Part shown: piece by piece, positions 2,426 to 16,076 of the stretch
Layout: every line of letters begins with the position of its first letter
Numbering within the stretch: position 1 is the first letter of the stretch
NCBI RefSeq assembly: GCF_009689005.1
Contig: NZ_AP021879.1
Span: 5,241,724 to 5,305,723, forward strand
Origin: Desulfosarcina ovata subsp. ovata
GTDB taxonomy: Bacteria > Desulfobacterota > Desulfobacteria > Desulfobacterales > Desulfosarcinaceae
DNA: 64,000 nucleotides
Reading direction: 5' to 3'
The notes under the pieces: model-generated
Told to the model about the DNA's origin: nothing
What the model saw: the letters and a program-made list of their open reading frames with translations, nothing else
The model's database searches: none
Made by a program: the position numbers and the translations under genes

Positions 2426-3271
2426 CTAAGCTGCCAATCCCGCTTCTTTCAGAATGGGCAGCAGATACTCCAGGCTCTGCCGGCCGGCTTCCTCCGGGCG
2501 GTCGGTGTACGGATAGAGTTCGAGACTCATGTCGTAACGATAACCGCACTGCTTGATGGCCCGGAGCACCGCCGGAAAGTCGATGGCGCCCAGGCCGGCG
2601 ATAAGGTGGTTGTGCTCACGGGTGGGGGCGATGTCTTCGATATGGATATGCCCGATCCAGGGAAACAGTTCTTCGAAAGCCGAGGCCGGGTCCTCGCCGG
2701 CACAGAAGAAATGGCCGATGTCGAAATTGATCCCCACGATCGGCGCCTGGATCTCCGCCACGAAGGGTTTGATCTCGGCGGTGCGCTCCATGAGAAGATT
2801 CGGCTCCGGTTCGATGAGCAGCCGCACGTCGAGTTCCTCGGCCCTGGGGATGACCTGATCCATGCCGGCGTGAAACAGGCGCAGGGCTTCCTGACGGGTC
2901 ATTCCCGCCGGCAGCGGCCCGCCCGGCGGTACGGAGATGTTGGCGCAGCCGATGCGGGAAGCGATGTCGAGACAGGCCAGGGTATGGTCCACGCGGATTT
3001 TTCGACGCTCGGCCTCCGGTTCGATCCAGGACGGGAGATAGGTGTCGCCCACGGCGAAGAGCGTAAAACTGTTCAGGTTGGTGGGCGTCAGACCGTTTTT
3101 CTCAAGGGCGGCCTTGACCTCGGCCAGCCTGGCCGCATCGTACTCGGGCGGGTAGAGGTGGGGCTGGTCGCACATGATTTCCACACCGGCGAACCCCAGC
3201 CGGGCGATGCGGTCGAATGAATCCAACAGCGGGAATTTTACGAAGGCGTTGGTACTGTAGCCGAAAATCAT
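2426..3271 (-). CDS. Sugar phosphate isomerase/epimerase (xylose isomerase-like TIM barrel)
   Basis: A 281-residue AP-endonuclease-2/xylose-isomerase-like TIM barrel protein. Metal-site residues are visible as Glu in LIEPEPN, Asp and His in NFDIGHFF, His in IGHIHIEDI and Glu in MSLELYPY. The start at 3271 (MIFGYSTNAF) has an AAAGG site 10 bases upstream; the open frame continues upstream but into low-quality sequence. It lies 52 bases after the inositol-3-phosphate synthase gene on the same strand, so the two are probably co-transcribed. A role in processing an inositol- or keto-sugar-derived compound is inferred. A synthase plus TIM-barrel pairing of this kind recalls ebo-type clusters, but no prenyltransferase or dehydroquinate-synthase-like gene is adjacent. 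Confidence 0.85.
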   Translation of the reverse strand: MIFGYSTNAFVKFPLLDSFDRIARLGFAGVEIMCDQPHLYPPEYDAARLAEVKAALEKNGLTPTNLNSFTLFAVGDTYLPSWIEPEAERRKIRVDHTLACLDIASRIGCANISVPPGGPLPAGMTRQEALRLFHAGMDQVIPRAEELDVRLLIEPEPNLLMERTAEIKPFVAEIQAPIVGINFDIGHFFCAGEDPASAFEELFPWIGHIHIEDIAPTREHNHLIAGLGAIDFPAVLRAIKQCGYRYDMSLELYPYTDRPEEAGRQSLEYLLPILKEAGLAA

Positions 3272-3323
3272 AGGAGCGGAGCCTTTCTTTTCGCGAGCAT
3301 GGGGATCGCACCGCCAATGCTTG

Positions 3324-4508
3324 TTATTTACCACCGTCGGGTGATTCGTCGATGCGGCGGTTGATTTTTGCTTCCAACCGGTCAAGGGCGGCCAACTGGT
3401 CCGCAAAGGTCAGCGGCGCGTCGCCGCCGACCGGCTTTTTAAAGAAGAATGCCAGATCGGGAACCGGTCCGCCCATGCCGGCCACCTGCAACGCCGCGGC
3501 CCAGCGCGCCAGATCCAGGGCCATGGGGGCCGCCAGGATGGAATCCCGGCCCTGCAGGTTGAGACGCAGGCTCATGGGCATCCCGAAAATGCCCTTCACA
3601 TCGATGACGTCCCAGGCTTCCTTGGCGTCCCCCCGGGGCGGGTAGTAGTCGATGTGTACCTTGTGGGTGGAACGGCCGTATTGCTCGCCTACCGGGTATC
3701 CGAGAAGATCGTCCAGGAGGCGGGTTTTGTTGTTCAGCTTGCCGCAGGCACGCTCCGGGTCCATCAGATTGAGCCCGTCGGCATTGCCCAGGATGTTGAG
3801 GCTGTACCATCCGTCCACGTAAAGCCCGCGGGCCTTCAGCGCGGATGCCAGCACCACCTTGAAATAGGTCTGGCCGGTTTTGCCGTCGCGGCCGGCCATG
3901 GGGGTGCCGTTTTCACGGGCCTGGTCGACGATGGCCGGCAGTTCGACGGTGTTGGGACTGAAGTTGACCACCGGGATGCCGGCTTCGACGGCTGCGGCCA
4001 CGTAGGCCAGGTCCGGCAACAGTGCCCCGGCGTCCTCTTCCAGGAGCATTGCCATATCCGTGTAGCGTGAGGGATCGGCCAGGTCGCAGGCGGCAGGCAG
4101 CAGGTTGAGCAACACCGGACGGGCGTGCGGCCAGCGGTTGCGGCAGCGCACAATATCCGCAGTGATCCGGGCGACCTGGTCGCCGACGCGGCCGGTGGCC
4201 GGTGGTGCGCTGAACGCCGGCAGACGGTCCAGCATGGGCGCATGGGGCTGCCAGATCCCCTCCGGCAACACGCCGTGGCGCCCGATTGCGGTGGTGATCG
4301 TCTCGGTTGAGAGGTCCCATCCGGCCATGGTCACCTGCGGGCATTGGCCAAGGGCGCTGAATTTGCCGGCCGTGGTGAGTCCGGGAACGATCAGATCGGG
4401 GGCGGTCTGCATGGCGGCCATCGCTGTGGCGAGGGTGGTGCCGATGGCGCCTTTGATACCGGCGACGAGCAGCAGCATCTGTGGAGAATCGTCGGGCGTT
4501 TGGTCCAT
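3324..4508 (-). CDS. Inositol-3-phosphate synthase
   Basis: A 394-residue member of the myo-inositol-1-phosphate synthase family, which converts glucose 6-phosphate to 1L-myo-inositol 1-phosphate in an NAD-dependent internal redox cycle. The N-terminal Rossmann region has GIKGAIGTT (about residues 18-26). The catalytic region carries VNFSPNT, the near-invariant AGRDGKTGQT and YSLNILGNADG, followed by a lysine-containing NNKTRLLDD segment. The C-terminus is shorter than in eukaryotic enzymes, typical of the prokaryotic type. The likely product supplies inositol lipids or compatible solutes. Two CDP-alcohol phosphotransferase domains are encoded 13 kb away, but a link is only inference. Confidence 0.9.
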   Translation of the reverse strand: MDQTPDDSPQMLLLVAGIKGAIGTTLATAMAAMQTAPDLIVPGLTTAGKFSALGQCPQVTMAGWDLSTETITTAIGRHGVLPEGIWQPHAPMLDRLPAFSAPPATGRVGDQVARITADIVRCRNRWPHARPVLLNLLPAACDLADPSRYTDMAMLLEEDAGALLPDLAYVAAAVEAGIPVVNFSPNTVELPAIVDQARENGTPMAGRDGKTGQTYFKVVLASALKARGLYVDGWYSLNILGNADGLNLMDPERACGKLNNKTRLLDDLLGYPVGEQYGRSTHKVHIDYYPPRGDAKEAWDVIDVKGIFGMPMSLRLNLQGRDSILAAPMALDLARWAAALQVAGMGGPVPDLAFFFKKPVGGDAPLTFADQLAALDRLEAKINRRIDESPDGGK

Positions 4509-4688
4509 GGTTATCCACTTTCCTTAAGTGAGACGTCGATTCGAGCGGAGAGATAAACGCTCGCACCATAAAAGGAAGCACCGGCAAAGTCAAGCCGGCG
4601 CTGGAGCGGTTCCAGGGTGACCACATGTAACCTTGGTATGTGATGTGCTTTACAGGACGATCGCGTACGGATCGTTACGATGATCCAA

Positions 4689-4865
4689 ATCGAAATCGGG
4701 ATCGCTATCGAAATCGAAAAGAAATGGGGCGTAGGCATGCAGACGGGATGTTTGGCGACTTGCGGTCAATGGTCATCGGCGCCATGGGAAACTGGGAACC
4801 GTCTAGCGCCCTTTTGTCAACCCGTGATTTCAATATACATCGTCGATTTCGATCCCGATTTCGAT
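4689..4865. repeat. Inverted repeat in the iorA upstream region
   Basis: The arm at 4689-4716 (ATCGAAATCGGGATCG followed by a second ATCGAAATCG) is the inverted counterpart of 4844-4865. The arms enclose about 127 bases without a convincing coding frame. The rest of this 490-base gap between the inositol synthase start and iorA holds only the short repeat at 4874-4892 and, presumably, the iorA promoter, which I could not pin down. Confidence 0.55.
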
Positions 4866-4873
4866 AAACTTGA

Positions 4874-4892
4874 GTTACATGCGATTGCCCTG
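4874..4892 (+). repeat. Dispersed short repeat, copy 1
   Basis: The 19-base motif GTTACATGCGATTGCCCTG occurs here. Exact or near copies occur near 20645-20660 (inverted), 20994-21008, 55389-55406 (inverted) and 55525-55542. At the two other loci the copies form inverted pairs, so this could be one end of a small inverted-repeat element whose partner is lost or decayed. Confidence 0.5.
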
Positions 4893-4998
4893 TCCGGTCA
4901 AACCACCACTCTCGACTTTTGCGACAATTCCGTGTAATAGCCAGATACCCCGTTATCCCAATGCGGGATGATGATTTCCTGACAAAATCGAGGCAGAA

Positions 4999-6819
4999 AT
5001 GAACCAGGCAGAAAACAAAGCGCTCATGATGGGCAACGAGGCCATCGCCCGCGGGTTGGTCGAAAATGGCTGCAGCGTGGCGACGGCCTACCCGGGAACC
5101 CCGTCATCGGAAATCCTTTCGTCCGTTGCAATGTATCGACGGCAGTTGGGTATCGACATGCATACCCAATGGGCGGTCAATGAGAAGATCGCTTTTGAAA
5201 TCGCCTACGCCGGCAGCCAGGCCGGCCTGCGAACGGCGGTGAGCATGAAACAGGTGGGACTGAACGTGGCCTCGGATCCGTTGATGAGCGCCGCCTACAT
5301 GGGTTGCGTCGGTGGATTCATTATCATCAGTGCCGATGATCCCGGCCCGCACTCCTCCCAGACCGAGCAGGACAGCCGCATGTTGGCCGTGATGGCCAAG
5401 ATTCCCGTGCTTGACCCCGATTCCCCCGGTCAGGCCAAGGCGATGGTCGGCATGGCCTATGACCTTTCCGAAACGTTCAAGACCCCGGTGATGCTGCGGC
5501 CCACCACCCGGGTGTGCCATTCCCGCCAGGATGTGCAGCCCGGCGACATTCCGGTTTCAACCCGGCAGCCCGATTTCAAAAAAGACCCGCTGCGCTGGGC
5601 GGCCACGCCCAAATTCCGTTACCAATTGCACCTTGAACTGGAAGCCAAGCTGGCCGACATCGCCAGGCAAACGGCCACCGCCCCGCTGTTGCGCAACCCC
5701 CAGGCCGGCGGACGGCAGGCGGTGGTCGCCAGTGGGGTGGCCGCCGCTTACACGGCGGAAGCCTTAAACGATCTTGGCTTGTGGGAGCGCCTGCCCTTCT
5801 ATCAGGTGCTGCAGCCGTTTCCCCTGCACACCGATTTCATGAAACAGTTGCTGGCCAACCATGACGACGTGCTGATCCTGGAGGAGTCCACCGGCATCAT
5901 CGAGATGCAACTGGCCGATCACCGGCGAGTCAAGGGCAAGCTGAACCATGTGGTTCCGCGGGTGGGTGAACTGCTGCCTGAAAAAGTCGAGCGGTTGCTG
6001 GCCGACTTCACCGGCCAGGCGGTCACCATCCCGGAGCTGCCCCCAGCCCCGGGCCGGCGGCCGACCCTGTGTGCCGGCTGCCCCCACCGGGCCAGTTTTT
6101 TCGCCATCAAGAAAGCGGCGCCGCGGGGCATCTACACCAGCGATATCGGCTGTTACACCCTGGGGCTCAACCTGGAGGCGGTGGACACGGTGCTTTGCAT
6201 GGGGGCCGCCATCAGCCAGGCCGCCGGCTTTTACCATGCCTACCGCAATGCCGAGAAACGGCCCGATGTGGTAGCCACCATCGGTGACTCGACTTTTTTT
6301 CACGCCGGTTTGCCGGCCCTCATCGACGCGGTGAACCACAATGTCCGTTTCGTACTGGTGATTTTGGACAACCGTACCACGGCCATGACCGGCAGCCAGC
6401 CCACACCGGCCACGGGTACCGGTGTCAGCGGCGAGGCACTGGTCAAAGTGGATATGGAGACCCTGATCAAGGGCTGTGGGGTGGAATTTCTGGAGGTCGG
6501 CGATCCCTATGACCTGGCAAATTTCACCGCCATGGTCAAAAAGGCGGTGGCCTTCAGCCGCAGCCACGGACCGGCCGTGGTCATTGCCCGCCATCCATGC
6601 ATCATCGACCTCTCGCGCCAGGGAAAGGGTACCGATCCAGTCAGGGTAACCGTCAACGATGACTGCGACGGCTGCGGCTACTGCCTGCAGCACTTCGAAT
6701 GCCCGGCCCTGGTCGCCGTGGACGATGGCGCCCGCACGGCCGTGGATCCGTTGATTTGCACCGGATGCGGGGTGTGTCTCAACGTATGCCCCAAAGGGGC
6801 CATCGTGGCAGACAGGTAG
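4999..6819 (+). CDS. iorA: Indolepyruvate ferredoxin oxidoreductase, alpha subunit
   Basis: IorA, 606 residues, full length. It oxidatively decarboxylates aryl pyruvates (from Trp, Phe, Tyr transamination) to aryl-acyl-CoA and reduces ferredoxin, or runs in reverse. An N-terminal pyrimidine-binding domain (AYPGTPSSE) is followed by a thiamine-diphosphate domain with DIGCYTLG and GDSTFFHAG...DNRTTAMTG. Two C-terminal 4Fe-4S clusters are visible (CDGCGYCLQHFEC and CTGCGVCLNVCPKG). The start at 4999 has a GAGGCAG site. iorB follows after 139 bases on the same strand. Confidence 0.95.
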   Translation: MNQAENKALMMGNEAIARGLVENGCSVATAYPGTPSSEILSSVAMYRRQLGIDMHTQWAVNEKIAFEIAYAGSQAGLRTAVSMKQVGLNVASDPLMSAAYMGCVGGFIIISADDPGPHSSQTEQDSRMLAVMAKIPVLDPDSPGQAKAMVGMAYDLSETFKTPVMLRPTTRVCHSRQDVQPGDIPVSTRQPDFKKDPLRWAATPKFRYQLHLELEAKLADIARQTATAPLLRNPQAGGRQAVVASGVAAAYTAEALNDLGLWERLPFYQVLQPFPLHTDFMKQLLANHDDVLILEESTGIIEMQLADHRRVKGKLNHVVPRVGELLPEKVERLLADFTGQAVTIPELPPAPGRRPTLCAGCPHRASFFAIKKAAPRGIYTSDIGCYTLGLNLEAVDTVLCMGAAISQAAGFYHAYRNAEKRPDVVATIGDSTFFHAGLPALIDAVNHNVRFVLVILDNRTTAMTGSQPTPATGTGVSGEALVKVDMETLIKGCGVEFLEVGDPYDLANFTAMVKKAVAFSRSHGPAVVIARHPCIIDLSRQGKGTDPVRVTVNDDCDGCGYCLQHFECPALVAVDDGARTAVDPLICTGCGVCLNVCPKGAIVADR

Positions 6820-6867
6820 ATCTCGGCATCGACCAGGGCGACCGCATTTGAAATGGATGAGTGTCAA

Positions 6868-6935
6868 ATGCCAACATCCAAATGTCAATTGAAGGATAAA
6901 ATCGATTAAATTGGACAGAATTCCACACATTCGAG
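6868..6935. repeat. Dispersed intergenic repeat E, copy 1 (between iorA and iorB)
   Basis: The iorA-iorB gap holds a sequence that recurs inverted at about 20700-20757. Both share ATCCAAATGTCAATTGAAGG, and then further matching blocks (ATCGATTA..., GGACAGAAT.CCAC.CATT) with small differences. No coding potential is seen. At the second copy the homology is interrupted by a 163-base element (repeat A, copy 2), so this site resembles the uninterrupted form. Confidence 0.5.
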
Positions 6936-6958
6936 CAGACGGGAAATCGAGATAAATC

Positions 6959-7516
6959 ATGAAATCAGAAACAACCTGTCAGATTGTGATCAGTGGTGTG
7001 GGTGGCCAGGGGGTCTTGTTCGTCACCCGCCTGTTGGCCGAGGCCGCCATCGCCAAAGGCCTTCCGGTGTATACATCGGAAACCCACGGCATGGCCCAGC
7101 GGGGGGGGACGGTCATTTCCCATCTCAAGGTGGGGCCGTTCGCCAGCCCCCTGATCAATCCCGGCCGGGCCGACGGACTGATCGCCATGAAAGCCGAAAG
7201 CCTCGCTCAGCACGGGGGGTACCTCAACCCCGCCGGGTGGGCGGCGGTCAATGGGCCAGCCCCCACCGAAAACCGATCTTCACCACAGGCATTTTTCATC
7301 GATGCGGATCACTTGGCCGGCGAAATGGGCAACCCGAGGGCCGTCAACCTGATCATGCTGGGTTTTTTCCTGGCCCGCACCGTGTCCAACCCACCGGGGC
7401 CCCCGCCGTTCTATTGCAACTTAGACGACATCGGCGCCGTTTTGCAAAAACGACTCAGCAAAAACCCCCAGTTGCTGGCGGCGTCCATGGCCGCCCTTGG
7501 GAGCGGAGCGAAATAA
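6959..7516 (+). CDS. iorB: Indolepyruvate ferredoxin oxidoreductase, beta subunit
   Basis: IorB, 185 residues, the gamma-domain partner of IorA. The N-terminus VISGVGGQGVLFVTRLLAEAA carries the family's Gly-rich motif, followed by the conserved ETHGMAQRGGTVISHLK segment. It forms the alpha-beta complex that binds CoA and channels electrons to ferredoxin. The start is ATG at 6959. The next gene starts 4 bases after its stop and is likely co-transcribed. Confidence 0.94.
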   Translation: MKSETTCQIVISGVGGQGVLFVTRLLAEAAIAKGLPVYTSETHGMAQRGGTVISHLKVGPFASPLINPGRADGLIAMKAESLAQHGGYLNPAGWAAVNGPAPTENRSSPQAFFIDADHLAGEMGNPRAVNLIMLGFFLARTVSNPPGPPPFYCNLDDIGAVLQKRLSKNPQLLAASMAALGSGAK

Positions 7517-7520
7517 GGCT

Positions 7521-8564
7521 ATGGTGGATCATTCCGGAACCGGTAGAGACAAGTACCTGACCCTCTTTGAGAGCCTGCAGTTCCCCGTCGCCCTGTTGGA
7601 TAAAGACTGCCGCATCGATGCCATGAACAGTGCCTGGAAAAACTTATTCAGGGATGCATCCCATGCCGGTGCCGGCAACGATACGGAAAGCCGGCCCCAT
7701 ACTTTGGCAACCTGGATATCCGACGACGTCAGAGGGTTCGTATCCAGTGGCAGGGATGAAGACGTGATTGAGAAGCGGGTGGAAACGGTCGCGGGCAAAC
7801 GGCATCTTTCCGTTAAACTCAAACGTATGCCCGATGTCGGCGACACGTTCAGCGGCTGCGTGATTGTACTGGACGATATCACACGGCAAAAGAAGACTGA
7901 GTTGGCGCTTCAGGAAACCACCATCTGGCTCACCAAGATGTTCAACGCCCTGGAAGAAGCCGTTTTCATCGGCACCTCACAAGGCATGATTGTAAACGCC
8001 AACAGGGCCGCCCGGCGAATTTTCGGATATGCCCTGGAAGATCTGAAAAACCAGACCACGGAATTGCTGCACGTGGATCATGAACATTTTATGGCTTTCA
8101 ACACACGATTAAAAGAAGAGCTGACCAAGGGGGAAAGCACCACGATTGAGTATGTGGCCAGACGCAAAAACGGTGAGGTCTTTCCCGTCATCGCCAATGT
8201 TACCCGGCTGAAGCGGGAAGATAATAAAACCCTGGGCATTGTCAGTATCCTGCGAGACATTTCCGCCATCAAAATGGCCGAAGAGGCCGCCCGTGACAGT
8301 GAACGGCTCCAGGGGGCACTGGAACTGGCCGGGGCCGTCTGCCACGACATGAATCAGCCGCTGATGGCGATTACCGGCTACGCGGAACTTCTTTTGATGG
8401 AATGCTGCTAGGCAGATCCACAATACCCCAGACTGAAAAAAATCATGGAACAGGTGGATAAGGTGGGCGGCATTACCCGCAAACTGATGCACGTCACCCG
8501 TTACAAGACCAAAATCTATCTGGACCAGCAGATCATTGACATCGACCAATCTTCCGATCGGTGA
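7521..8564 (+). pseudogene. PAS-domain sensor histidine kinase, interrupted by an in-frame TAG
   Basis: The frame starts at ATG 7521, 4 bases after iorB, with AAGG upstream. It encodes two PAS domains (about residues 8-120 and 128-255) and a dimerisation/phosphoacceptor helix with CHDMNQPLMAITGYAELLL. A TAG stop at 8409-8411 cuts the helix. The same frame then continues with clearly homologous sequence (DPQYPRLKKIMEQVD, GGITRKLMHVTRYKT, QIIDID) to TGA at 8562-8564, so the stop is a nonsense mutation or is read through. No ATPase domain follows; related short proteins may naturally lack it. The TAG-terminated product would be 296 residues with an incomplete DHp domain. Confidence 0.75.
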
Positions 8565-8640
8565 GACATTCACCCGGATCATCACCGAAGAGAAAGCCCA
8601 TATCGACCAGTTCCGCAAGTTGCTGGCCAGCGGCGAATGA
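8551..8640 (+). pseudogene. C-terminal remnant of a ferritin-like/rubrerythrin gene
   Basis: In a frame shifted relative to the preceding kinase, about 28 codons read ...GETFTRIITEEKAHIDQFR KLLASGE and then stop at 8638-8640. The pattern E-x(2)-F-x-R-I-I-x-E-E-K-x-H-I-D-x-F matches the last iron-binding helix of ferritin-like/rubrerythrin proteins (E-E-x-x-H). Nothing upstream in this frame is ferritin-like, so a deletion appears to have fused the kinase end to the ferritin end. Short length limits certainty. Confidence 0.45.
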
Positions 8641-8660
8641 CATCGCTTTCCATCCTCGGC

Positions 8661-8694
8661 GGTGGCAACGCCAGCCAAAACTGGCGTTGCCACC
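8661..8694. terminator. Hairpin between convergent genes
   Basis: A perfect 14-bp inverted repeat (GGTGGCAACGCCAG / CTGGCGTTGCCACC) around the loop CCAAAA lies between the kinase/ferritin remnant (plus) and the aldolase gene (minus). There is no U-tract on either side, so it may be a Rho-assisted or RNA-processing hairpin rather than a classic terminator. Confidence 0.6.
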
Positions 8695-8706
8695 GTGACG
8701 GGTATA

Positions 8707-9510
8707 TCAGCGGTTGCGCATCTCTTCGAGCAGCTGGGCGGCTTCGTTGACCGTCATGTTTTCGTGAATCAGGCCGTGAACCGCCGTCAGCAGGGCCACC
8801 GGGTAGGGGCTCTGCCAGACATTGCGGCCCATGACGATTCCTTTGGCTCCGCCCTGCAGCGCGCCGTGGATCATCTTGAGGGTGTCGAGATCGGTTTCGC
8901 ACTTGGGACCACCGGCGATCATGATCGGTACGGGGCAGCCGGCGACCACTTTTTCAAAATCCGTTTCCGTGTAATAGGTTTTGATGATGTCCGCACCGTG
9001 CTCCGCACCCACCCGGGCACCCAGAGCAATGAATTTGGGATCTTTTTTCTTGTCTTCATTGGTTTTCCCCAGGCCGATGACACCAAGCAGGGGCAGATCC
9101 CACTTGCGGCACTCCGTGGAGAGGCCGGCCATGCTGATCAGGGTTTCGTGCTCATAGGGAGAGCCCACGAAGGCCGATGTGGCCACGGCATCCACGCCCA
9201 GGTGCAAGGCCTCCTTGGCCGTGGCGGTTTGCCCCTCACGGGTCAGCTCCGGTCCGGCGATGGTGGCCCCGCCGCTGGCCCTCAGGATCACGCCGGGATC
9301 GCCGGCCGGATCAAAGGCGTGATTGTAAATGCCCTTGGTCATCAGCCAGCAGTCGACCTTTCCGGTGGCATCCAGCTGGCGGATGGTTTCAGCAACATTC
9401 ACAATGCCGGTCATGGGTCCCAGAGCCATCCCATGATCCACGGCCAGGACCAGGCTGCGCCCGGTATCCTTGTTCAGTATTCTTCTCAGGCGTCTCTTTT
9501 TTCCATGCAT
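8707..9510 (-). CDS. DhnA/LsrF-type class I aldolase
   Basis: 267 residues, related to LsrF (3-hydroxy-5-phosphonooxypentane-2,4-dione thiolase), DhnA fructose-bisphosphate aldolase and the archaeal ADH synthase AroA'. Visible family marks: LAVDHGMALGP, LRASGG, GADIIKTYYTE (the Lys is the Schiff-base candidate), AGCPVPIMIAGGPK and MGRNVWQSPYPVA. It is the last gene of a minus-strand cluster, 48 bases after the dehydrogenase; GAGGAACAACC precedes its ATG. The substrate is unknown. The LsrF resemblance favours a phosphorylated ketose-type C-C bond cleavage or synthesis. Confidence 0.85.
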   Translation of the reverse strand: MHGKKRRLRRILNKDTGRSLVLAVDHGMALGPMTGIVNVAETIRQLDATGKVDCWLMTKGIYNHAFDPAGDPGVILRASGGATIAGPELTREGQTATAKEALHLGVDAVATSAFVGSPYEHETLISMAGLSTECRKWDLPLLGVIGLGKTNEDKKKDPKFIALGARVGAEHGADIIKTYYTETDFEKVVAGCPVPIMIAGGPKCETDLDTLKMIHGALQGGAKGIVMGRNVWQSPYPVALLTAVHGLIHENMTVNEAAQLLEEMRNR

Positions 9511-9541
9511 GGTTGTTGTTCCTCTAGTCGGTTAGGGATAA

Positions 9542-9561
9542 TTTTTGACAGAAATCGCCTA
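9542..9561. repeat. Solo tip of repeat family A
   Basis: The sequence TTTTTGACAGAAATCGCCTA is the inverted terminal part of repeat A (full copies near 13.6, 20.8 and 58.7 kb). Only about 20 bases remain, and they supply the TAG stop codon of the upstream dehydrogenase gene (9559-9561). Confidence 0.6.
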
Positions 9562-10590
9562 AAACATCACAATCCCCCGGATCATCTCCTGGGCCTTGGC
9601 CCGTTCGACGGCATCCAGAAAGTTATCCAGGGTGAAGGTATCGGACACCAGGTCGTCCACGCGGATCTCACCCGTTTCGATCAATGTCAGGCATTTTTTG
9701 AAATCGTCGGGGGAACAGGCGAACGTGCCGGTCAGGGTAATCTCCATATAGTGCAACCAGCGGGGATCCACACTGATGGCCTCACCGGCCGGAGGCCCGC
9801 CGAAGACGTTGAAGGTTCCCCCCTTGCGGGTCAGCTTCAGGTTGGCTTCCACGACCTTGGGAATGCCCAGGGAGGCAATCACCACTGCAGCCCCCTTGCC
9901 ATCGGTGATCTTCCCGATGGCGGCGGCATGGTCCGTGGTGGATGGGTTGATGCAATGGTCGGCACCCATGGCCGCGGCCACCTTCAGCCGGCTGTCCAGG
10001 ATATCGACCACGATCACCGTGGCCCCATGCCACTTGGCCATTTTCAGGTGCATGAGGCCCATGGGACCGGCCCCCAGGATCACCACATGGTCGCCGGCCG
10101 CTACCCGGCATGCCTTCAGGGAGGCGTAGACACAGGAGAGCGGCTCGGCCAGGACCGCCTTCTCAAAAGGCAGGTCGTCCGGAATCTTGACCACACCGCC
10201 GATGTCGATGATCTGCTTCGGCAGACGCACGTATTCGGCGAATCCGCCCTCGATGCCGTGGGCCAGACCGAACTCATGGTCGCACAGATTATGCCGCCCC
10301 TTGCGGCAGTACTCGCACCGGCCGCATACGGCGATGGGATAGACCGCGACCCGGTCGCCAATGGCATAACCGGATACACCCGCCCCGATCTCGGCGATTT
10401 CGCCCACCACCTCGTGGCCCAGAATCGTGGGCAGCTCCTTGGGCAGGCCCTGGCCGAGCAGGGTTTTGATATCGGTGGCGCAGATCCCGGAGACCCGGGT
10501 GCGCACCACCATTTCCCCTTCACCGGCAGTGGGGGTGGGGTAGTCTTCGATGCGAATATCGTTTTTTCCGTATACAACCGCCGCTTTCAC
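9559..10590 (-). CDS. Zinc-dependent medium-chain alcohol/polyol dehydrogenase
   Basis: 343 residues, MDR superfamily (Tdh/sorbitol-dehydrogenase-like). Catalytic zinc ligands fall in GICATDI and GHEVVGE. The structural zinc lobe is CGRCEYCRKGRHNLC. The NAD(P)-binding site is LGAGPMGLMHLKMAKWHGATVIVVD. It likely oxidises a secondary alcohol of a sugar or polyol. Its ATG overlaps the stop of the TrpF-like gene by 4 bases (ATGA), implying translational coupling. The protein ends ...IVMF at a TAG contributed by the tip of a repeat-A element, so the native C-terminus may have been altered slightly. Confidence 0.9.
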   Translation of the reverse strand: MKAAVVYGKNDIRIEDYPTPTAGEGEMVVRTRVSGICATDIKTLLGQGLPKELPTILGHEVVGEIAEIGAGVSGYAIGDRVAVYPIAVCGRCEYCRKGRHNLCDHEFGLAHGIEGGFAEYVRLPKQIIDIGGVVKIPDDLPFEKAVLAEPLSCVYASLKACRVAAGDHVVILGAGPMGLMHLKMAKWHGATVIVVDILDSRLKVAAAMGADHCINPSTTDHAAAIGKITDGKGAAVVIASLGIPKVVEANLKLTRKGGTFNVFGGPPAGEAISVDPRWLHYMEITLTGTFACSPDDFKKCLTLIETGEIRVDDLVSDTFTLDNFLDAVERAKAQEMIRGIVMF

Positions 10591-11297
10591 GTTTTCTCAC
10601 CTCTCTTTGTTGATGCCTGTCGGATGGCATCCATTAACCGTTTGACCTTGGCCGGATCCTTCTTTCCGGAGCGTGCTTCCACCCCTGAACACAGATCGAT
10701 GCCATACGGATCCACGGCGGCCAGGGCGGCGGCGACATTGTCGGGATCGATGCCGCCGGCCAGCCAGACGGGAAACCCGGCGGGCACCATCTGCATGAAG
10801 GTGCCCGCCAGCGCCCAGTCAAAAGTCAGGCCGGTTCCGCCAAATTTGATCTGGCCCTGTTTGATCGCTGCCGTATCCAGCAGCAGGGCGTCCACACCGG
10901 CCTGGAGATAGGCCTCCACGCCGGCTTTCAGATCGTCCAGCTCGACTTGGCCGCCGGCCTGGGGCAGATGCACGGACTGCCAGATTTGCGTTTCCGGGAA
11001 AGTCGATTTCAACCGTTTCAGCACGGCCCGGTCCGAATCGCCCAGAAACTGCACGGCAAAGGGGCATAGGTCCTGGATGAGACGATGAATGCGGCTTTCC
11101 GGCATTTTACACACCAGGGCCACGGCCGGCAGTGGCGGCGCGTCGAACAGGGACCGGGCCGCTTCGATGGTCAATGACCGGGGTGAGAAATCCACCTCCA
11201 CCACCACGCCGAAAAAATCGGCACCGGCCTCGGCCGCCAGCCGGGCATCGTCCGGATTGGTGGTGCAGCAGATTTTGGCATGGTAAGGTGTCGGCAT
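10587..11297 (-). CDS. Phosphoribosylanthranilate isomerase-like protein (TrpF family)
   Basis: 236 residues, TIM barrel of the TrpF family. It has the N-terminal KICCTTNPDDARLAAEAGADFFGVV pattern, the phosphate-binding region GGIDPDNVAAAL, and IDLCSGVEARSGKKDPAKVKRLM at the end. TrpF normally performs the Amadori rearrangement in tryptophan synthesis. Here it lies in no trp operon: it sits 2 bases after a GHMP kinase and overlaps a dehydrogenase. The first motif reads KICCTTN rather than the usual KICGxTxxED, replacing the common Gly. Either it is the relocated TrpF of this organism or a paralogue acting on another phosphoribosylamine-type compound. Confidence 0.82.
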   Translation of the reverse strand: MPTPYHAKICCTTNPDDARLAAEAGADFFGVVVEVDFSPRSLTIEAARSLFDAPPLPAVALVCKMPESRIHRLIQDLCPFAVQFLGDSDRAVLKRLKSTFPETQIWQSVHLPQAGGQVELDDLKAGVEAYLQAGVDALLLDTAAIKQGQIKFGGTGLTFDWALAGTFMQMVPAGFPVWLAGGIDPDNVAAALAAVDPYGIDLCSGVEARSGKKDPAKVKRLMDAIRQASTKRGEKT

Positions 11298-11299
11298 AT

Positions 11300-12514
11300 C
11301 TACCCCTTGAGCCAGTTGTCGTTGGTGAAACTGCGCTCCACGCCATCCTCGCGAATGGTTCCGCCAAGGTTGTCCACCTCGGTCTCGATAATGCGCGTCT
11401 TGGAAATCTTCAGCGACTCGAGATAGGAGAGCACCCGGTCGTACACATCCGGTTTCTGGGTCAAGGCGAATACCGTCGGCCCCACCGAGCTCATGCCAGC
11501 AATCTCCACTCCGATCTTTCTAAAGACGTTGATGTACTGGTAAATGGGGGTGCCGAAGTTACCGTGCTGCTCACACTCGGCCCGTTTGGAACCCAGATAG
11601 CAGATGTCGAACAGAGCATCGCCCATCTTCTGCAGATCTCCCTTGATCATGGCCGGCAGCATATCGAAGAGAACGATCTGGGCCTTGGCCCCGGCCTGCA
11701 GGGCATCCAGGCTCCGGGCCCGCCGCATCAGCAGTTCCACCTCGGATTCGGCCGAGGTCTCCTTGCCGCGGAATTCGTCTTCCAGGCTTTGGACCTCCGG
11801 AATAAAAATAATCGCCTTGGTATTGGGCAACTCGACCCGATGAGCCAGCATGAGATCGTCACTGGCCACCACCCAGCCGCCGTTGACGCCCACCATGGCC
11901 CCGATGCCGGTTTCGAAGGCGGGCAGCAGGAAACCGTTGTTTTCCGGACTCTCCTCACAGGAGTTGTAGCCCATGATGCGACGCAGTTCCCAGCCATGGA
12001 AGGGCCGCCCCAGCACCTCGTTCATGCCGATGCACGCCGCGCACATGGTGCCGATGGAAGACCCCAGACCCACATGCCGGCGTTTGTGGTCGTGCAGTTC
12101 GATCTCGAACCCACCGGGATATCCCAGCAGTTTTTTGAAGATGTGTCCGAAATGGCTGACGATGAGCTGCCGTTCACCGGAGGCGCGGATCTCCGGTTCG
12201 TCGATGGCCCTTATCTTGGCATGAAAGTAGATCGCGATGCTGACCCCGAGGCCCCCGCCCCCGGGGCGGTTGAGGTTGAACCGGTTCATGTCGAGCACCG
12301 TGGGATGCAGCCGGGCCGGGACCTTGACCTCGATCTCGTTATGCTTGACCTGGTTGTAGCCTCTCGGTTCGATACCTAACGTTTCGTAGTCGCGGATAAA
12401 GCGTTCATCACCGGGTTTGAATTCCTCGAGAATCGTGGTGACCTTGTCGAAACGGCCCCCGATAATTTCTATTTCGATTTTCTCTCCCTGCCGCCCACTT
12501 TCCTGTGTGGTCAT
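11300..12514 (-). CDS. GHMP kinase family protein (beta-RFAP synthase-like)
   Basis: 404 residues. The ATP-binding motif of GHMP kinases is seen in RRHVGLGSSIGTMCAACIGMNEVLG, and an N-terminal substrate segment reads VKVPARLHPTVLDMNRFNLNRPGGGGLGVSI. Overall it resembles the COG1907 group that includes beta-ribofuranosylaminobenzene 5'-phosphate synthase of methanopterin synthesis, an enzyme using PRPP. It is first in the cluster; GGGGGGAG precedes its ATG. The combination with a TrpF-like isomerase suggests a ribosyl-phosphate-linked pathway; the actual reaction is not known. Confidence 0.78.
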   Translation of the reverse strand: MTTQESGRQGEKIEIEIIGGRFDKVTTILEEFKPGDERFIRDYETLGIEPRGYNQVKHNEIEVKVPARLHPTVLDMNRFNLNRPGGGGLGVSIAIYFHAKIRAIDEPEIRASGERQLIVSHFGHIFKKLLGYPGGFEIELHDHKRRHVGLGSSIGTMCAACIGMNEVLGRPFHGWELRRIMGYNSCEESPENNGFLLPAFETGIGAMVGVNGGWVVASDDLMLAHRVELPNTKAIIFIPEVQSLEDEFRGKETSAESEVELLMRRARSLDALQAGAKAQIVLFDMLPAMIKGDLQKMGDALFDICYLGSKRAECEQHGNFGTPIYQYINVFRKIGVEIAGMSSVGPTVFALTQKPDVYDRVLSYLESLKISKTRIIETEVDNLGGTIREDGVERSFTNDNWLKG

Positions 12515-12723
12515 TGGTTCTCCCCCCTGTAAGATTCTGTAGGCATGTCGTCGCTAAAGGGTACATGCAATGGCGCTGGTTGTCAGGTGCGTTGCTTTCA
12601 GGTTCGGACGGGAACGCAAAATTTCTGCAATCCGACCGACGATCGCCAGATAATTATGATTCAGGGTGTAAACACGATTCGATTGCTGGCTTGCAGCCGA
12701 TAAAGTTGCTGTTGATAACATGG

Positions 12724-13554
12724 TTAAAATTTTTCTGTCAACTTTTCATACTCCCCGGCTTCAGCTATCCGTCCCCGTTTGCGGCATCCCTGAGCATAAA
12801 TAGCGCACTTGTTTTTCAACATGGCGATGGCGGCCGTTTGCTGATCCTCGGACAGACAACCGCATTGCAACAGGCGGGTGATCGATCGGATGCGGTATTT
12901 GTCCAGTTCGGGCATGCGCGAGAGTTGGTCGGCATGGCCGCCGTGTTTGACGATCAACGGGCGCTCGATCAGGTGGATCGGGTATTTCCAGGCGATGCGT
13001 AGCCATAGATCGTAATCCTCACAGGCCGGAAGATCGGGATCGAACCCCCCCACTTCATCCAACAGGGACCGGTGCAACATTACTGCCGAGGGGCTTACCA
13101 GGCACAGTTCCAGACTGCGCTCGAAGATCATGCCGCCCTCCTTGCGATGGCGTTTGCCCGGATTGACCCGCGCTCCGTTTCGGATCCAGAGTTCCTCGGT
13201 CTGGCAGATCAGGGCATCGGGATGACGGGAAAAAAAATCGACCTGGGCGGCCACTTTGCCCGGCAGCCAGGCATCGTCCGAGTCCAAAAGGGCGATCAAG
13301 TTGCCTTCGGCAGCCTGAATGCCGGCATTTCGGGCGGCGCTGACCCCCTGATTGCTTTGCCGAATGACCTGAATCTGCGTCCCGTAGTCCGCCAAAAGGT
13401 CGGCCGTGCCGTCGGTGGACCCATCGTCCACAACGATCAATTCCAGGGCGGTGTAATCCTGATTAAGGACCGAGTCAATTGCGGACCGGACCGTCCAGGC
13501 CCGGTTGTAGGTGGGCAGGACAACACTGACCAGCGGTGATTTCCCGTTATTCAT
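12724..13554 (-). CDS. Family 2 glycosyltransferase
   Basis: 276 residues, GT-A fold. N-terminal VSVVLPTYNRAWTVRSAIDSVLNQ is followed by VVDDGSTDGT (nucleotide-sugar binding), GVSAARNAGI and the DxD-type ALLDSDDAW motif (about residue 93). Further on, EDYDLWLRI is the usual acceptor-side ED motif. No membrane segments are seen, so it is probably cytoplasmic or peripheral, acting on lipopolysaccharide or a secreted glycan. It stands alone, with 200 bases to the GHMP cluster and a repeat-A element upstream. No strong ribosome site precedes the ATG. Confidence 0.9.
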   Translation of the reverse strand: MNNGKSPLVSVVLPTYNRAWTVRSAIDSVLNQDYTALELIVVDDGSTDGTADLLADYGTQIQVIRQSNQGVSAARNAGIQAAEGNLIALLDSDDAWLPGKVAAQVDFFSRHPDALICQTEELWIRNGARVNPGKRHRKEGGMIFERSLELCLVSPSAVMLHRSLLDEVGGFDPDLPACEDYDLWLRIAWKYPIHLIERPLIVKHGGHADQLSRMPELDKYRIRSITRLLQCGCLSEDQQTAAIAMLKNKCAIYAQGCRKRGRIAEAGEYEKLTEKF

Positions 13555-13612
13555 GGTCGCTGACCATACTGTCCGGCGGGCTCCTGCGCAAGGATCATCT
13601 AACCAAGGATTT

Positions 13613-13774
13613 TAGGCGATTTCTGTCAAAGAATATACCCGCCTGCTTGTCTTTTCATCCGTCTTCTGCGTTGGGCTTTTCCATACATAGCCCCACTATA
13701 CATAAAAAAGCCCGCCTTGAATACGAATGAAAATCCGGCGCATCCTGGTATATTGTTATCCGCCAATCGCCTTA
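13613..13774. repeat. Repeat A, copy 1 (about 162 bp, MITE-like)
   Basis: One end reads TTAGGCGATTTCTGTCAAAG and the other, inverted, TAAGGCGATTGGCGGATAAC; both are followed by AATATACC, giving imperfect terminal inverted repeats of about 28 bp. Inside, GGGCTTTTCC...AAAAAAGCCC forms a further hairpin. Close copies lie at 20764-20926 (inverted), 51851-52090 plus 53686 (interrupted) and 58677-58839. The right tip provides the TAA stop (13772-13774) of the MFS gene. Confidence 0.85.
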
Positions 13775-15022
13775 CGGGTTGCCCGGTTCCGGCTCCGTAC
13801 GGGGGTCCATGGCCGTTGCCACCGGGGATGTGCTCTTCATGGGCACGAAGGCCACCTGCTCCTCCACCGGAACAATATCGATTTTTTCCCGCTTGCGTAA
13901 GTAGAGGGTAATGCCGGCAAGTGCGGCGTTGACCATGCACCAGAAGGCGAAGAGGCCGAACGGTGTGCCCATCAGGGTCATCACTCCCGAGGCGACGATC
14001 GGGCTCATGCTGGCGCCGATGCTGTAGGCAAAGAGCAGACCGGCGCTCACCGCCACGGCATCCTGTCCACCGAAAATGTCGTGGGCGCGGGCCACCGCCA
14101 CCGGATAGACCGCGAACATCATGGTGCCGAAAACGCCCATGCCGGCCAGCAGTGCCCCGAAGGAGTGCCTGCCACCGATGAACATGACGGCGCTGAAGCC
14201 GGCGATGGCGGTGGCAATGACGCTGAGCACGACGGTACGGTCAAACCGATCCGACAGGGAGCCGATGACCCATTGGGCCGCCAGGCCGGAGAAGACGGTC
14301 GTGGTCATGATCCACGACAACTGGTGCAGGGTCAGTCCGATTTGGGTACAGAACAGCGGCGTCAGGGCATAAAACGCGCTGTTGGTAAGTCCTGCGGCCA
14401 TGCTGCCGAGCATTCCCAGGGGGGATTTTCGGAAGATGGTCATGAAGTGATAGGGCTTGGTCTCCGGCAGGCGTGGATGGACCCCTTCGGTGGCCGATAC
14501 CGGCACGAGACACAGTGCGAAAAGGATTCCGCTGATCACGAACAGATCGGGGCCCTGGATATCGGCGACATTGAGCAGCTGCTGGCCGATGCCGATTCCC
14601 AGGTAGCTCAAGGTCATGTAGATGGAGAAGATCCGTCCGCGGAAGTGCGGTTCGGTGCACTCGTTGAGCCAGCTTTCGATGACCATGAATAGGCCGAAGG
14701 ATGTCGTGCCGCTGAAAAATCGCAGCGCCCCCCAGAACCACGCCGACAGGTAGAGGCCGTGGAGCAGGGCGGCGGCGGTGGTGGTGGCGGCAAAGACCGT
14801 GAAGGCACGGATGTGTCCCACCCGCTGGATGAGCCGGTGGCACAGGAACGATCCGGCCAGCAGGCCTGAAAAATAGCAGGAAAGAACGAGGCCGGACGTG
14901 GCCGTGGAAAATCCCGCCAGTGCCATGCGTGTGCTGAGAAGGGTACTCAACAGGCCGCTGCCGGTCAAAAGAATGATCGTGGCGGTAAACAGGGCGCCGA
15001 ATGCACCAATGGTATTTGCCAT
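13772..15022 (-). CDS. MFS transporter, YcaD-like
   Basis: 416 residues with about 12 hydrophobic segments. The motif VIESWLNE after helix 4-5 is diagnostic of the YcaD/UMF group of major facilitator proteins; GSLSDRFDRTVVL is the second-half loop motif. The start is taken at 15022 because GAGGTGA lies 6 bases upstream; an upstream GTG would add 6 residues. The cytoplasmic C-terminal tail is Pro/Glu-rich and stops at a TAA donated by repeat A. Substrate unknown; export of small molecules is typical. Confidence 0.88.
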   Translation of the reverse strand: MANTIGAFGALFTATIILLTGSGLLSTLLSTRMALAGFSTATSGLVLSCYFSGLLAGSFLCHRLIQRVGHIRAFTVFAATTTAAALLHGLYLSAWFWGALRFFSGTTSFGLFMVIESWLNECTEPHFRGRIFSIYMTLSYLGIGIGQQLLNVADIQGPDLFVISGILFALCLVPVSATEGVHPRLPETKPYHFMTIFRKSPLGMLGSMAAGLTNSAFYALTPLFCTQIGLTLHQLSWIMTTTVFSGLAAQWVIGSLSDRFDRTVVLSVIATAIAGFSAVMFIGGRHSFGALLAGMGVFGTMMFAVYPVAVARAHDIFGGQDAVAVSAGLLFAYSIGASMSPIVASGVMTLMGTPFGLFAFWCMVNAALAGITLYLRKREKIDIVPVEEQVAFVPMKSTSPVATAMDPRTEPEPGNP

Positions 15023-15150
15023 GGGCGTCACCTCAACCAAAAAAGGGCAGACACGTTCCGATCGTCATGGATCGCTTATCGGCTGAAAACCGGCGCTAAA
15101 AAGCAGATTATGGCAATTTAAGCAACCTATTTTTTCTCCTCATGTTTGGG

Positions 15151-15906
15151 CTATCGGAGAGCGACGTAGACATACCCGCCACTGCCGTAGCCGTGCATTT
15201 TAAACATGTGGTGGTAATCCGTTGACAGCCCGTTGAAAAAGGTTTCGAAACCGACCTGATAGGGTCGCGTTTCATCGGGATCCACATCGAGCATGGTGAC
15301 GCGGTCGGTTTTGGCATCATAGGCGCCCACCGGTGAAATATGGGGAATATTCAGGGTGGGGATCAGGCTGCCCTGATCAAAATGGGCGATCAGCAATCCC
15401 CTGCCGTGCCGGTCAAAATCGATCAGCCGTTTTTTCAGCAGCGTCCGGAGCGGTGATTGATGCGGCGTGTTTTTGGGCGTGGGAACAATGTCCACATGGC
15501 CGGCCGTCAACCCGTAAATGGCGATGCTGTCTTTGATTACCTGGCCCAGCAGGGGCAGGGGCAGCCCGCGGCGACCGTGATAACCGCCTGAGCTCATGCG
15601 CTGTTTCCAGTGTCCGGTGGGAACCTGGTCGAGGATTTCGGCCTGGGTGATGGGGCGGATGCCGTTGGCACCCAATGAACGGAGGGCATTGATGCACGCC
15701 ACCACGCTGGCCACCGAGCATGACGAGCCGTGGAATTGCTTGACATGATGCTTCCAGATGGCCTGTTTGAGTGGGTTCCACCAGGGGCTGATCGATGGAT
15801 CGACATACTTCACCCCACCCTTACGAAATGACCCACTGGCGGTCAGACGGTGAAAACCGTACCGGGTGTAAAGATAGGGGCGGACCAGATGGCGCAACAG
15901 ATTCAT
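15151..15906 (-). CDS. Phytochelatin synthase-like papain-fold protein
   Basis: 251 residues. The catalytic triad of the phytochelatin synthase/clan CA fold can be placed: Cys63 in FHGSSCSVAS, His189 in IPHISPVGAYD and Asp207 in MLDVDPDE. The His-to-Asp spacing of 18 equals that of plant enzymes. Bacterial members mostly cleave glutathione to gamma-Glu-Cys rather than polymerise it. The start at 15906 is set by GGGAG seven bases upstream. No signal peptide is evident. A role in thiol or metal homeostasis is inferred from the family; the gene stands alone between an exporter and a transglycosylase. Confidence 0.78.
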   Translation of the reverse strand: MNLLRHLVRPYLYTRYGFHRLTASGSFRKGGVKYVDPSISPWWNPLKQAIWKHHVKQFHGSSCSVASVVACINALRSLGANGIRPITQAEILDQVPTGHWKQRMSSGGYHGRRGLPLPLLGQVIKDSIAIYGLTAGHVDIVPTPKNTPHQSPLRTLLKKRLIDFDRHGRGLLIAHFDQGSLIPTLNIPHISPVGAYDAKTDRVTMLDVDPDETRPYQVGFETFFNGLSTDYHHMFKMHGYGSGGYVYVALR

Positions 15907-16076
15907 TTTTATCTCCCGGGCAGTTCGGATGGGACGATTCCGATGGTGCAAGCATGCGTTGATGTGCTCAAAAATATGGTCATTGATCGAATCGATTCAA
16001 GTTTTTTGCACGATCGGCGATGAATCGATTGATGGATGACAATAATTCAAATAACCAAACCTGAGGATGTGCTGTT

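Follow-up and report, generated by a model that had tools for sequence, protein, structure and literature searches.

A conserved four-gene operon of Desulfosarcina ovata with a beta-RFAP synthase-like GHMP protein and a second TrpF: a candidate route joining phosphoribose to an aromatic acid

Gene content of the locus

We analyzed a window of 64,000 nucleotides from the genome of Desulfosarcina ovata subsp. ovata (NCBI RefSeq assembly GCF_009689005.1, contig NZ_AP021879.1, positions 5,241,724 to 5,305,723 of the forward strand), which holds an operon of four genes encoding a GHMP-fold protein, a second TrpF-type isomerase, a zinc dehydrogenase and an LsrF-like aldolase. The operon is a real, conserved and self-contained module, and the action of its four proteins in one pathway is well supported. 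By analogy with characterized relatives, we tentatively propose that it may join the ribose of phosphoribosyl pyrophosphate (PRPP) to a small aromatic acid and then reshape and cut the sugar chain, a reading that we hold as possible and somewhat short of an even chance. The genes are listed in operon order, with window coordinates:

11300..12514, minus strand: gene 1, GHMP-fold protein, beta-RFAP (beta-ribofuranosylaminobenzene 5'-phosphate) synthase/ForT-like, 404 amino acids (aa), GHMP domains
10587..11297, minus strand: gene 2, second TrpF-type isomerase, 236 aa, PRAI match at E 4.4e-25
9559..10590, minus strand: gene 3, zinc MDR dehydrogenase (ADH), 343 aa, best NCBIfam model IolM
8707..9510, minus strand: gene 4, DhnA-type class I aldolase/thiolase, LsrF-like, 267 aa, DeoC/LacD family

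Open reading frames (ORFs) and family searches confirmed the four genes, their shared strand and the spacings of 2, -4 and 48 bases from gene 1 to gene 4, as described in the initial annotation of this DNA. The genome is a single contig of 7.63 Mb whose only TrpC match lies at 6.06 Mb, approximately 0.8 Mb from the cluster, and the methanopterin marker MCH was not found in it, in keeping with the earlier remark that no trp or methanopterin gene is near.

Conservation of the operon across genomes

Loci were gathered with TrpF only, using two peptide patterns and one genome per species, and the best 80 of 134 relatives were kept (loci are cited below as L and genomes as G numbers). Partners were counted by tblastn, gene-caller ORFs being unreliable (e.g., an antisense ORF at 8662-10911), and the partner table omits matches that do not exceed 60 aa. 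In 28 of the 80 loci all four genes share a strand, and 26 of these 28 carry a cluster-type GHMP gene in the order GHMP-TrpF-ADH-aldolase, with the aldolase after the dehydrogenase in 26/26 complete cluster-type operons. The same family order is found in 27/80 loci, L073 having it with a beta-RFAP synthase as gene 1, and one operon is rearranged (L042, TrpF-ADH-aldolase-beta-RFAP synthase). A contig edge falls within or just after the operon in six further cluster-type loci (L040, L046, L051, L052, L054, L065), four loci are partial variants, and TrpF stands without partners in the available stretch of the other 42 (40 Poribacteria, L058 and L071). Among the partial variants, L110 has RFAP synthase-TrpF-ADH and then, in the place of gene 4, a metallo-beta-lactamase-fold hydrolase overlapping the ADH gene; L105 and L109 have only an RFAP-synthase-type GHMP gene and TrpF; and L099 has TrpF-ADH on a contig that begins 424 bases before TrpF. 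Neighboring genes often overlap or are tens of bases apart, with TrpF-ADH gaps of up to 200 and ADH-aldolase gaps of up to 458 bases.

At 18 housekeeping TrpF loci (~3.6 kb each), none held a GHMP, ADH or aldolase match at E 1e-6. Since the same order recurs in 27 of 80 loci while 0/18 housekeeping loci hold the partners, the recurrence goes beyond chance, and the early suggestion that the genes act together, made from their spacing, is borne out by the neighborhood search. Control loci likewise had no ADH or aldolase at E 1e-6 (two methanopterin, 11 Poribacteria RFAP synthase and six UbiD-type loci).

According to record titles and tree labels, hosts of the cluster type belong for the most part to Thermodesulfobacteriota and Bacillota (L048 carries the label Pseudomonadota), and the variant loci come from Myxococcota, Gemmatimonadota and Chloroflexota. 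The distribution among relatives of the window genome is patchy: the GHMP protein was matched in 2 of 60 near genomes, the window genome counted, and a phylum draw of 395 genomes gave 15 with some GHMP match, three of them at ≥66% identity (the window genome, G135 and G184). Among the matches listed in a search of the open-licence literature, no description of the four-gene operon was found. The published sources drawn on here, represented by partial texts, are PMC8183095, PMC6787355, PMC9832568, PMC8305020, PMC3087415, PMC2728841, PMC7828210, PMC7591586, PMC13101534 and PMC7500099.

The GHMP-fold protein

Among curated families, gene 1 scored best with beta-RFAP synthase (NF040726, 76.9 bits, E 1.5e-21), ahead of homoserine kinase (23.8 bits, E 1.7e-5), and it misses both beta-RFAP synthase cut-offs by far (76.9 of 328 bits for NF040726, 71.6 of 113.5 for TIGR00144). 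The resemblance pointed out in the initial annotation thus held, below cut-off, and the scores place gene 1 nearer to beta-RFAP synthase than to any of the kinase families. When 25 relatives were combined in one profile (four of RFAP-synthase type and one of UbiD type), it matched ForT at 1.6e-31 and homoserine kinase at 4.3e-9. In the alignment, ForT R19, H99, S104, E211 and K263 correspond to gene 1 R68, H147, S152, E258 and K310, which do not vary across the 25 rows, and the RFAP synthase D19 and R26 positions correspond to D75 and R83 (alignment to the RFAP-synthase rows; 7-residue spacing), D75 being invariant and R83 nearly so in the 25 rows and both invariant in the 20 cluster rows. In the excerpts of the literature, ForT E211A is the only variant without confidently measured activity, Lys263 to Ala is weak, the D19A and R26A variants of the Methanothermobacter RFAP synthase are inactive, and R26K raises the KM for 4-aminobenzoate. 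Beta-RFAP synthase and ForT are described in these texts as forming C-C bonds with loss of CO2.

The strongest argument for ribosyl transfer comes from beta-RFAP synthases that occupy the place of gene 1. Four loci exceed the NF040726 cut-off of 328 bits (L042 at 350.8, L073 at 356.5, L110 at 366.4 and L109 at 332.7), and the L105 GHMP protein stays under it (320.7). The L042 TrpF nests within the cluster clade, and the L042 ADH and aldolase share 67% and 78% identity with the window proteins; these partners being of cluster type, a true RFAP synthase can sit where gene 1 does, beside the same partners.

A different reading makes gene 1 a kinase that phosphorylates a riboside with ATP, the other three enzymes then degrading the product to triose phosphate and a two-carbon unit. 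The protein has the P-loop HVGLGSS, exceeds the cut-off of GHMP_kinases_C and is predicted to adopt a GHMP fold (mean predicted local distance difference test, pLDDT, 83.7); Foldseek with this model put ForT first by a hair with homoserine kinases alongside, without discriminating between them. When the profile was restricted to the 20 cluster-type rows, ForT remained the best solved match at 1.5e-7 with homoserine kinase close behind at 9e-6, so most of the ForT lead over kinases came from the RFAP-synthase rows, and a single-sequence search with gene 1 returned no solved structure at E 0.1. The PRPP contacts of ForT named in the published excerpts are R19, H99, T106, R135, S139 and S142, and three ForT 5'-phosphate contacts are not kept: T106 and S142 are lost in the gene 1 alignment, and at the R135 position Bacillota rows have Arg whereas Desulfobacterota rows do not. 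The S139 position is Thr, and that of ForT Q266 is Glu (E313) in gene 1. Sister GHMP proteins also adjoin UbiD genes. Against a kinase stand the preference of the curated models for beta-RFAP synthase, the retention of the positions of ForT E211 and K263 and of RFAP synthase D19 and R26, the true RFAP synthases in the same operon context, and the lack of a recurring transporter gene, apart from a broad ABC-ATPase family at 6 of the 37 loci counted. On balance we consider a kinase-first salvage route unlikely and retain ribosyl transfer as the preferred role of gene 1.

A GHMP tree of 53 rows, from which short or frame-broken rows (e.g., L036, L055, L057, L067 and L076) were dropped, separates the cluster type and the RFAP synthases into two groups, and the UbiD-associated proteins fall on the side of the former. 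This sister clade, with ~40% identity to the cluster GHMP proteins, is found beside UbiD genes in L033, to which the loci L027-L029, L034 and L035 are related. In L033 (7581-19001, annotated with Pfam) the GHMP gene lies with UbiD carboxylases, a UbiX-like flavoprotein, a HAD phosphatase and an aryl-CoA-ligase-like protein, a set that resembles anaerobic phenol or aniline carboxylation, and the L033 GHMP protein keeps the alignment-invariant residues. These sister proteins could be kinases.

The TrpF-type isomerase

The cluster-type TrpF proteins form their own clade of 60 rows (support 97/97, Poribacteria included), apart from housekeeping TrpF, in a tree of 81 rows, 73 of them different, that represents 9 of the 40 Poribacteria loci. 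The window genome has two: a housekeeping-type TrpF within trpDCF, after trpC and, by eye, trpD, and the operon copy in the separate clade. The operon is conserved and its TrpF is not the sole copy in the genome, the opposite of two findings that would have counted against the interpretation in the initial annotation.

Gene 2 reached 130.2 of 215 bits with the best curated TrpF model, missing the equivalog cut-off. Cys7, Asp126 and Arg36 are kept in 34/34 cluster rows (C10, D141 and R40 in the window protein), and His83 to Leu, Lys102 to Gln and Ser180 to Cys are each found in all 34. His83, which has a role in TrpF, is present in 16/18 housekeeping rows, and the loss of His83 and Lys102 hints at an altered specificity. 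Leu at the His83 position is also seen in 8/8 Poribacteria rows, and TrpC was found in 12/12 Poribacteria genomes; since the residue is common to bacteria with TrpC, its change is no proof of a lost tryptophan reaction, and the cluster-type TrpF of Poribacteria may be a tryptophan enzyme. The initial annotation had taken the KICC motif as the hint of altered specificity, and this did not hold up: KICC occurs only in the window TrpF, all 33 further cluster rows in the comparison having KxCG, and we rejected it as a functional signature, confined as it is to the protein of one genome.

It is very improbable that gene 2 is simply a second tryptophan TrpF with unrelated neighbors. The retained PRAI active-site residues would suit that role, and no other TrpF was found in five cluster genomes (G456, G458, G466, G467, G469), of which G469 has TrpC and the cluster TrpF only, so that this TrpF may have a tryptophan role in G469. 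Against it, a separate housekeeping-type TrpF is present in 18/24 cluster or variant genomes, the neighbors are conserved across two phyla, and the operon is kept in three genomes in which TrpC was not found (G456, G466 and G467, with only a fragment in G458; these are metagenome-assembled genome, MAG, records that may be incomplete).

The retained residues bear on another possibility, in which phosphoribose is attached to an amine, TrpF carries out its ordinary Amadori rearrangement, and oxidation and cleavage give an N-substituted glycyl thioester and dihydroxyacetone phosphate (DHAP). Cys7, Asp126 and Arg36 would all serve, and the known TrpF/HisA reaction acts on 5'-phosphoribosyl amines according to the excerpted literature. 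Gene 1 relatives whose chemistry is known, as described in those texts, instead make C-C bonds with CO2 loss, and proteins over the beta-RFAP synthase cut-off stand at the gene 1 place (L042, L073) or adjoin TrpF (L110, L109). Such an N-riboside route appears quite unlikely to us, and a C-riboside from an aromatic acid remains the preferred substrate of gene 2.

Other TrpF-like genes were seen in different surroundings. In L025 (234-3729) and L026, another GHMP gene is followed by a TrpF-like gene with Tyr for the catalytic Cys and then by pieces of phosphoglucose isomerase. A stray member of this TrpF-like family also lies elsewhere in the window genome (L003 1366-2268, C1:1613510), between genes that by eye encode a lytic transglycosylase and elongation factor P.

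The dehydrogenase and the aldolase

The best NCBIfam model for gene 3 is IolM (192.1 of 450 bits), with threonine dehydrogenase scoring almost as high (179.6 bits), and none of the models reaches its cut-off. The zinc-ligand residues are kept in 32/32 rows, and the second Rossmann strand ends in Asp (25) or Glu (7) in all 32. An acidic residue after this strand favors NAD+, and gene 3 is probably NAD+ dependent. IolM itself makes a 1,3-diketone from a beta-hydroxyketone.

Gene 4 has LsrF as its best NCBIfam model (260.4 bits, missing the cut-off of 297) and as its best solved match (E 1.9e-53). Of the LsrF site residues K203, D57, H58 and R254 (PMC2728841, partial text), K203 and R254 correspond to K177 and R229 in 29/29 gene 4 rows, and D57 and H58 to D25 and H26 in 28/29 rows, with one gap; gene 4 thus retains the Schiff-base Lys and the residues that bind phosphate. 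The same source reports LsrF crystals with ribose-5-phosphate and ribulose-5-phosphate bound in the active site, and the excerpted literature describes LsrF as a thiolase that depends on CoA and forms DHAP and acetyl-CoA. An entry to the shikimate pathway through AroA'/AroB' was rejected: DHQ synthase II (PF01959) was not found in the window genome. The cut-offs of ADTH synthase (AroA') were also missed (234.7 of 241 and 204.4 of 299.45 bits).

The operon and methanopterin

MCH was absent from all 20 distinct genomes with the cluster or a variant of it (sets of 12 and 8, with G340 and G455, which look like the same assembly, counted once), and on this ground we rejected a role in methanopterin biosynthesis. 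MCH is present in G264 and G307, whose RFAP synthase sits in a methanopterin cluster. The operon might still make a cofactor arm, with TrpF opening a C-riboside and the dehydrogenase reducing the ketone to a methanopterin-like 1-aryl-1-deoxyribitol 5-phosphate, the aldolase acting in a separate step. RFAP synthase beside TrpF and ADH without an aldolase (L110), or beside TrpF alone (L105, L109), would suit such an arm, and the available part of a 2011 review estimates that seven proteins of methanopterin synthesis are still to be found. The acidic, NAD+-type residue of all 32 dehydrogenase rows, the absence of MCH from the 20 genomes, the aldolase that follows the dehydrogenase in every complete cluster-type operon, and the methanopterin loci L031 and L032, in whose 14 and 18 kb no TrpF, ADH or aldolase was found, speak against it, and reduction to a cofactor arm strikes us as quite improbable. 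Oxidation and cleavage of the sugar chain after ribosyl transfer is the fate that we prefer.

Two further settings of RFAP synthases were noted. G135, which has the four-gene operon, also carries a canonical beta-RFAP synthase between a thiolase and a GNAT acetyltransferase (L030 8498-11334). Among Poribacteria chosen for a cluster-clade TrpF (L180-L191), 12/12 genomes have a beta-RFAP synthase elsewhere (nine exceed the cut-off and one is interrupted by a stop), and MCH was not found in any of the 12. We downgraded this co-occurrence as support, TrpC being present in all 12 genomes and another TrpF in neither of the two tested for it.

A proposed pathway

We infer the aromatic substrate and every reaction by analogy with known enzymes. 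The GHMP protein would put phosphoribose on the carboxylate-bearing ring carbon of an electron-rich aromatic acid, of the 4-hydroxybenzoate or 4-aminobenzoate type, with CO2 and pyrophosphate leaving as in beta-RFAP synthase and ForT; 4-hydroxybenzoate is a methanopterin precursor. The TrpF-type enzyme would then open the furanose in an Amadori-like isomerization to a 1-aryl-1-deoxyribulose 5-phosphate, the push on the C-riboside being relayed through the ring by the para OH or NH2. An NAD+-type oxidation of the 4'-OH by the dehydrogenase would give a 3-hydroxy-2,4-dione 5-phosphate, which has the LsrF substrate skeleton plus an aryl group at C1, and the LsrF-like enzyme would cleave this dione into an arylacetyl group and DHAP, the product being arylacetyl-CoA if gene 4 is CoA dependent like LsrF. 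The ribosyl-transfer and TrpF steps are moderately supported, and the dehydrogenase and aldolase steps weakly. The order of PRPP transfer, isomerization, oxidation and C-C cleavage fits the operon anatomy, as foreseen in the initial annotation, which spoke of making or breaking down a ribosyl-phosphate conjugate; the route may do either. In its fullest form, the proposal would turn an aromatic acid into its arylacetyl homologue with PRPP as the two-carbon source and have TrpF perform a vinylogous Amadori reaction on a C-riboside, which would also explain ring opening in methanopterin synthesis; this version we regard as doubtful.

The shortfalls of gene 1 described above, from the missed cut-offs to the altered phosphate contacts and the possible kinases of its sister clade, weigh against this proposal, as do several findings on its partners. 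TrpF Arg36 contacts the anthranilate carboxylate and is kept, though a decarboxylated C-riboside is not obviously in need of such a contact, and the Leu shared with Poribacteria tempers the argument from His83. LsrF D251 is replaced by V226 in 29/29 gene 4 rows. G135 contains both a cluster-type GHMP protein and a canonical beta-RFAP synthase, so exchange of one for the other is not the sole reading of L042. Finally, a Pelotomaculum MAG (L058) has a cluster-clade TrpF at 6104-6769 with no partner within 15.8 kb.

If true, the pathway would be a third use of C-C bond formation of the beta-RFAP-synthase type, beside methanopterin and the C-nucleoside antibiotics, and one that occurs in bacteria without methanopterin genes. 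The 12 Poribacteria genomes, each with an RFAP-synthase-type gene and none with MCH, likewise suggest a role for such genes outside methanopterin organisms. The TrpF barrel would gain a new substrate class, and with it a candidate enzyme type for ring opening, a step also needed in methanopterin synthesis.

Flanking genes and RNA elements

Outside the conserved core, two neighbors were annotated in the window:

4999..7516, plus strand: iorA-iorB-like, indolepyruvate:ferredoxin oxidoreductase (IOR); iorA by TIGR03336, iorB by eye
3324..4508, minus strand: inositol-1-phosphate-synthase-like, Pfam Inos-1-P_synth at E 5.3e-31

The iorA gene scored 649.8 bits with TIGR03336, just short of the cut-off of 650.9. 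L037, L042 and L060 likewise have an iorA relative close to the cluster, each scoring below cut-off, and two of the four loci belong to one genus. Known IOR relatives handle arylacetyl-CoA, and the proximity, noted post hoc, is weak and suggestive only. Among the loci examined, an inositol-1-phosphate-synthase-like gene adjoins the cluster elsewhere only in D. cetonica (L037), in divergent orientation, and we rejected an inositol pathway, the gene being near the cluster only in these two places. By eye, a xylose-isomerase-like TIM barrel (2426-3406) abuts the synthase-like gene, and a 266-aa phytochelatin-synthase-like peptidase lies at 15151-15951 on the minus strand.

A larger operon was also rejected, as no neighbor family recurs widely outside the four genes. 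In a count over 37 loci outside Poribacteria, which nevertheless includes Poribacteria L064 and leaves out L099, L105, L109 and L110, the widest flanking families were a broad ABC ATPase (6), iorA (4) and a PhoU-like protein (4). At nine loci, ten proteins flanking the operon were compared, nine of them downstream and one upstream, and they belonged to unlike Pfam families or to none. No RNA family matched at 3000-16000 of the window. An RNA scan of nine Bacillota loci gave a thiamine pyrophosphate (TPP) riboswitch in L062, far from the operon, and a TwoAYGGAY element in L066 (10849-11006, minus strand), which lies between ADH and aldolase on the opposite strand, barely over the gathering score.

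Comparison with known systems

Beta-RFAP synthase (MptG, of tetrahydromethanopterin biosynthesis) is the best family for gene 1, which keeps the D19 and R26 positions and the P-loop. In contrast, gene 1 has ~25% identity to the RFAP-synthase rows and scores below cut-off, its 5'-phosphate pocket is altered with an insertion, and the cluster genomes are without MCH. The C-nucleoside synthases ForT/PyfQ share five residue positions with gene 1, ForT being the best solved match of its profile; they differ in identity (~16%), in their operon partners, in having Gln rather than Glu at the Q266 position and in T106 and S142, which gene 1 does not keep.

With phosphoribosylanthranilate isomerase (TrpF), gene 2 shares the family, the catalytic Cys and Asp, Arg36 and the phosphate-binding motifs, but it falls in a separate clade, scores below cut-off and carries the His83 to Leu, Lys102 to Gln and Ser180 to Cys changes. 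The scyllo-inosose 3-dehydrogenase IolM provides the best family model of gene 3, whose 192.1 bits contrast with the cut-off of 450. LsrF, the 3-hydroxy-5-phosphonooxypentane-2,4-dione thiolase, gives the best model and solved match of gene 4 and has the same Schiff-base Lys, Asp57, His58 and Arg254, whereas gene 4 scores below the LsrF cut-off, has Val for Asp251 and sits in an operon with no other lsr-type gene.

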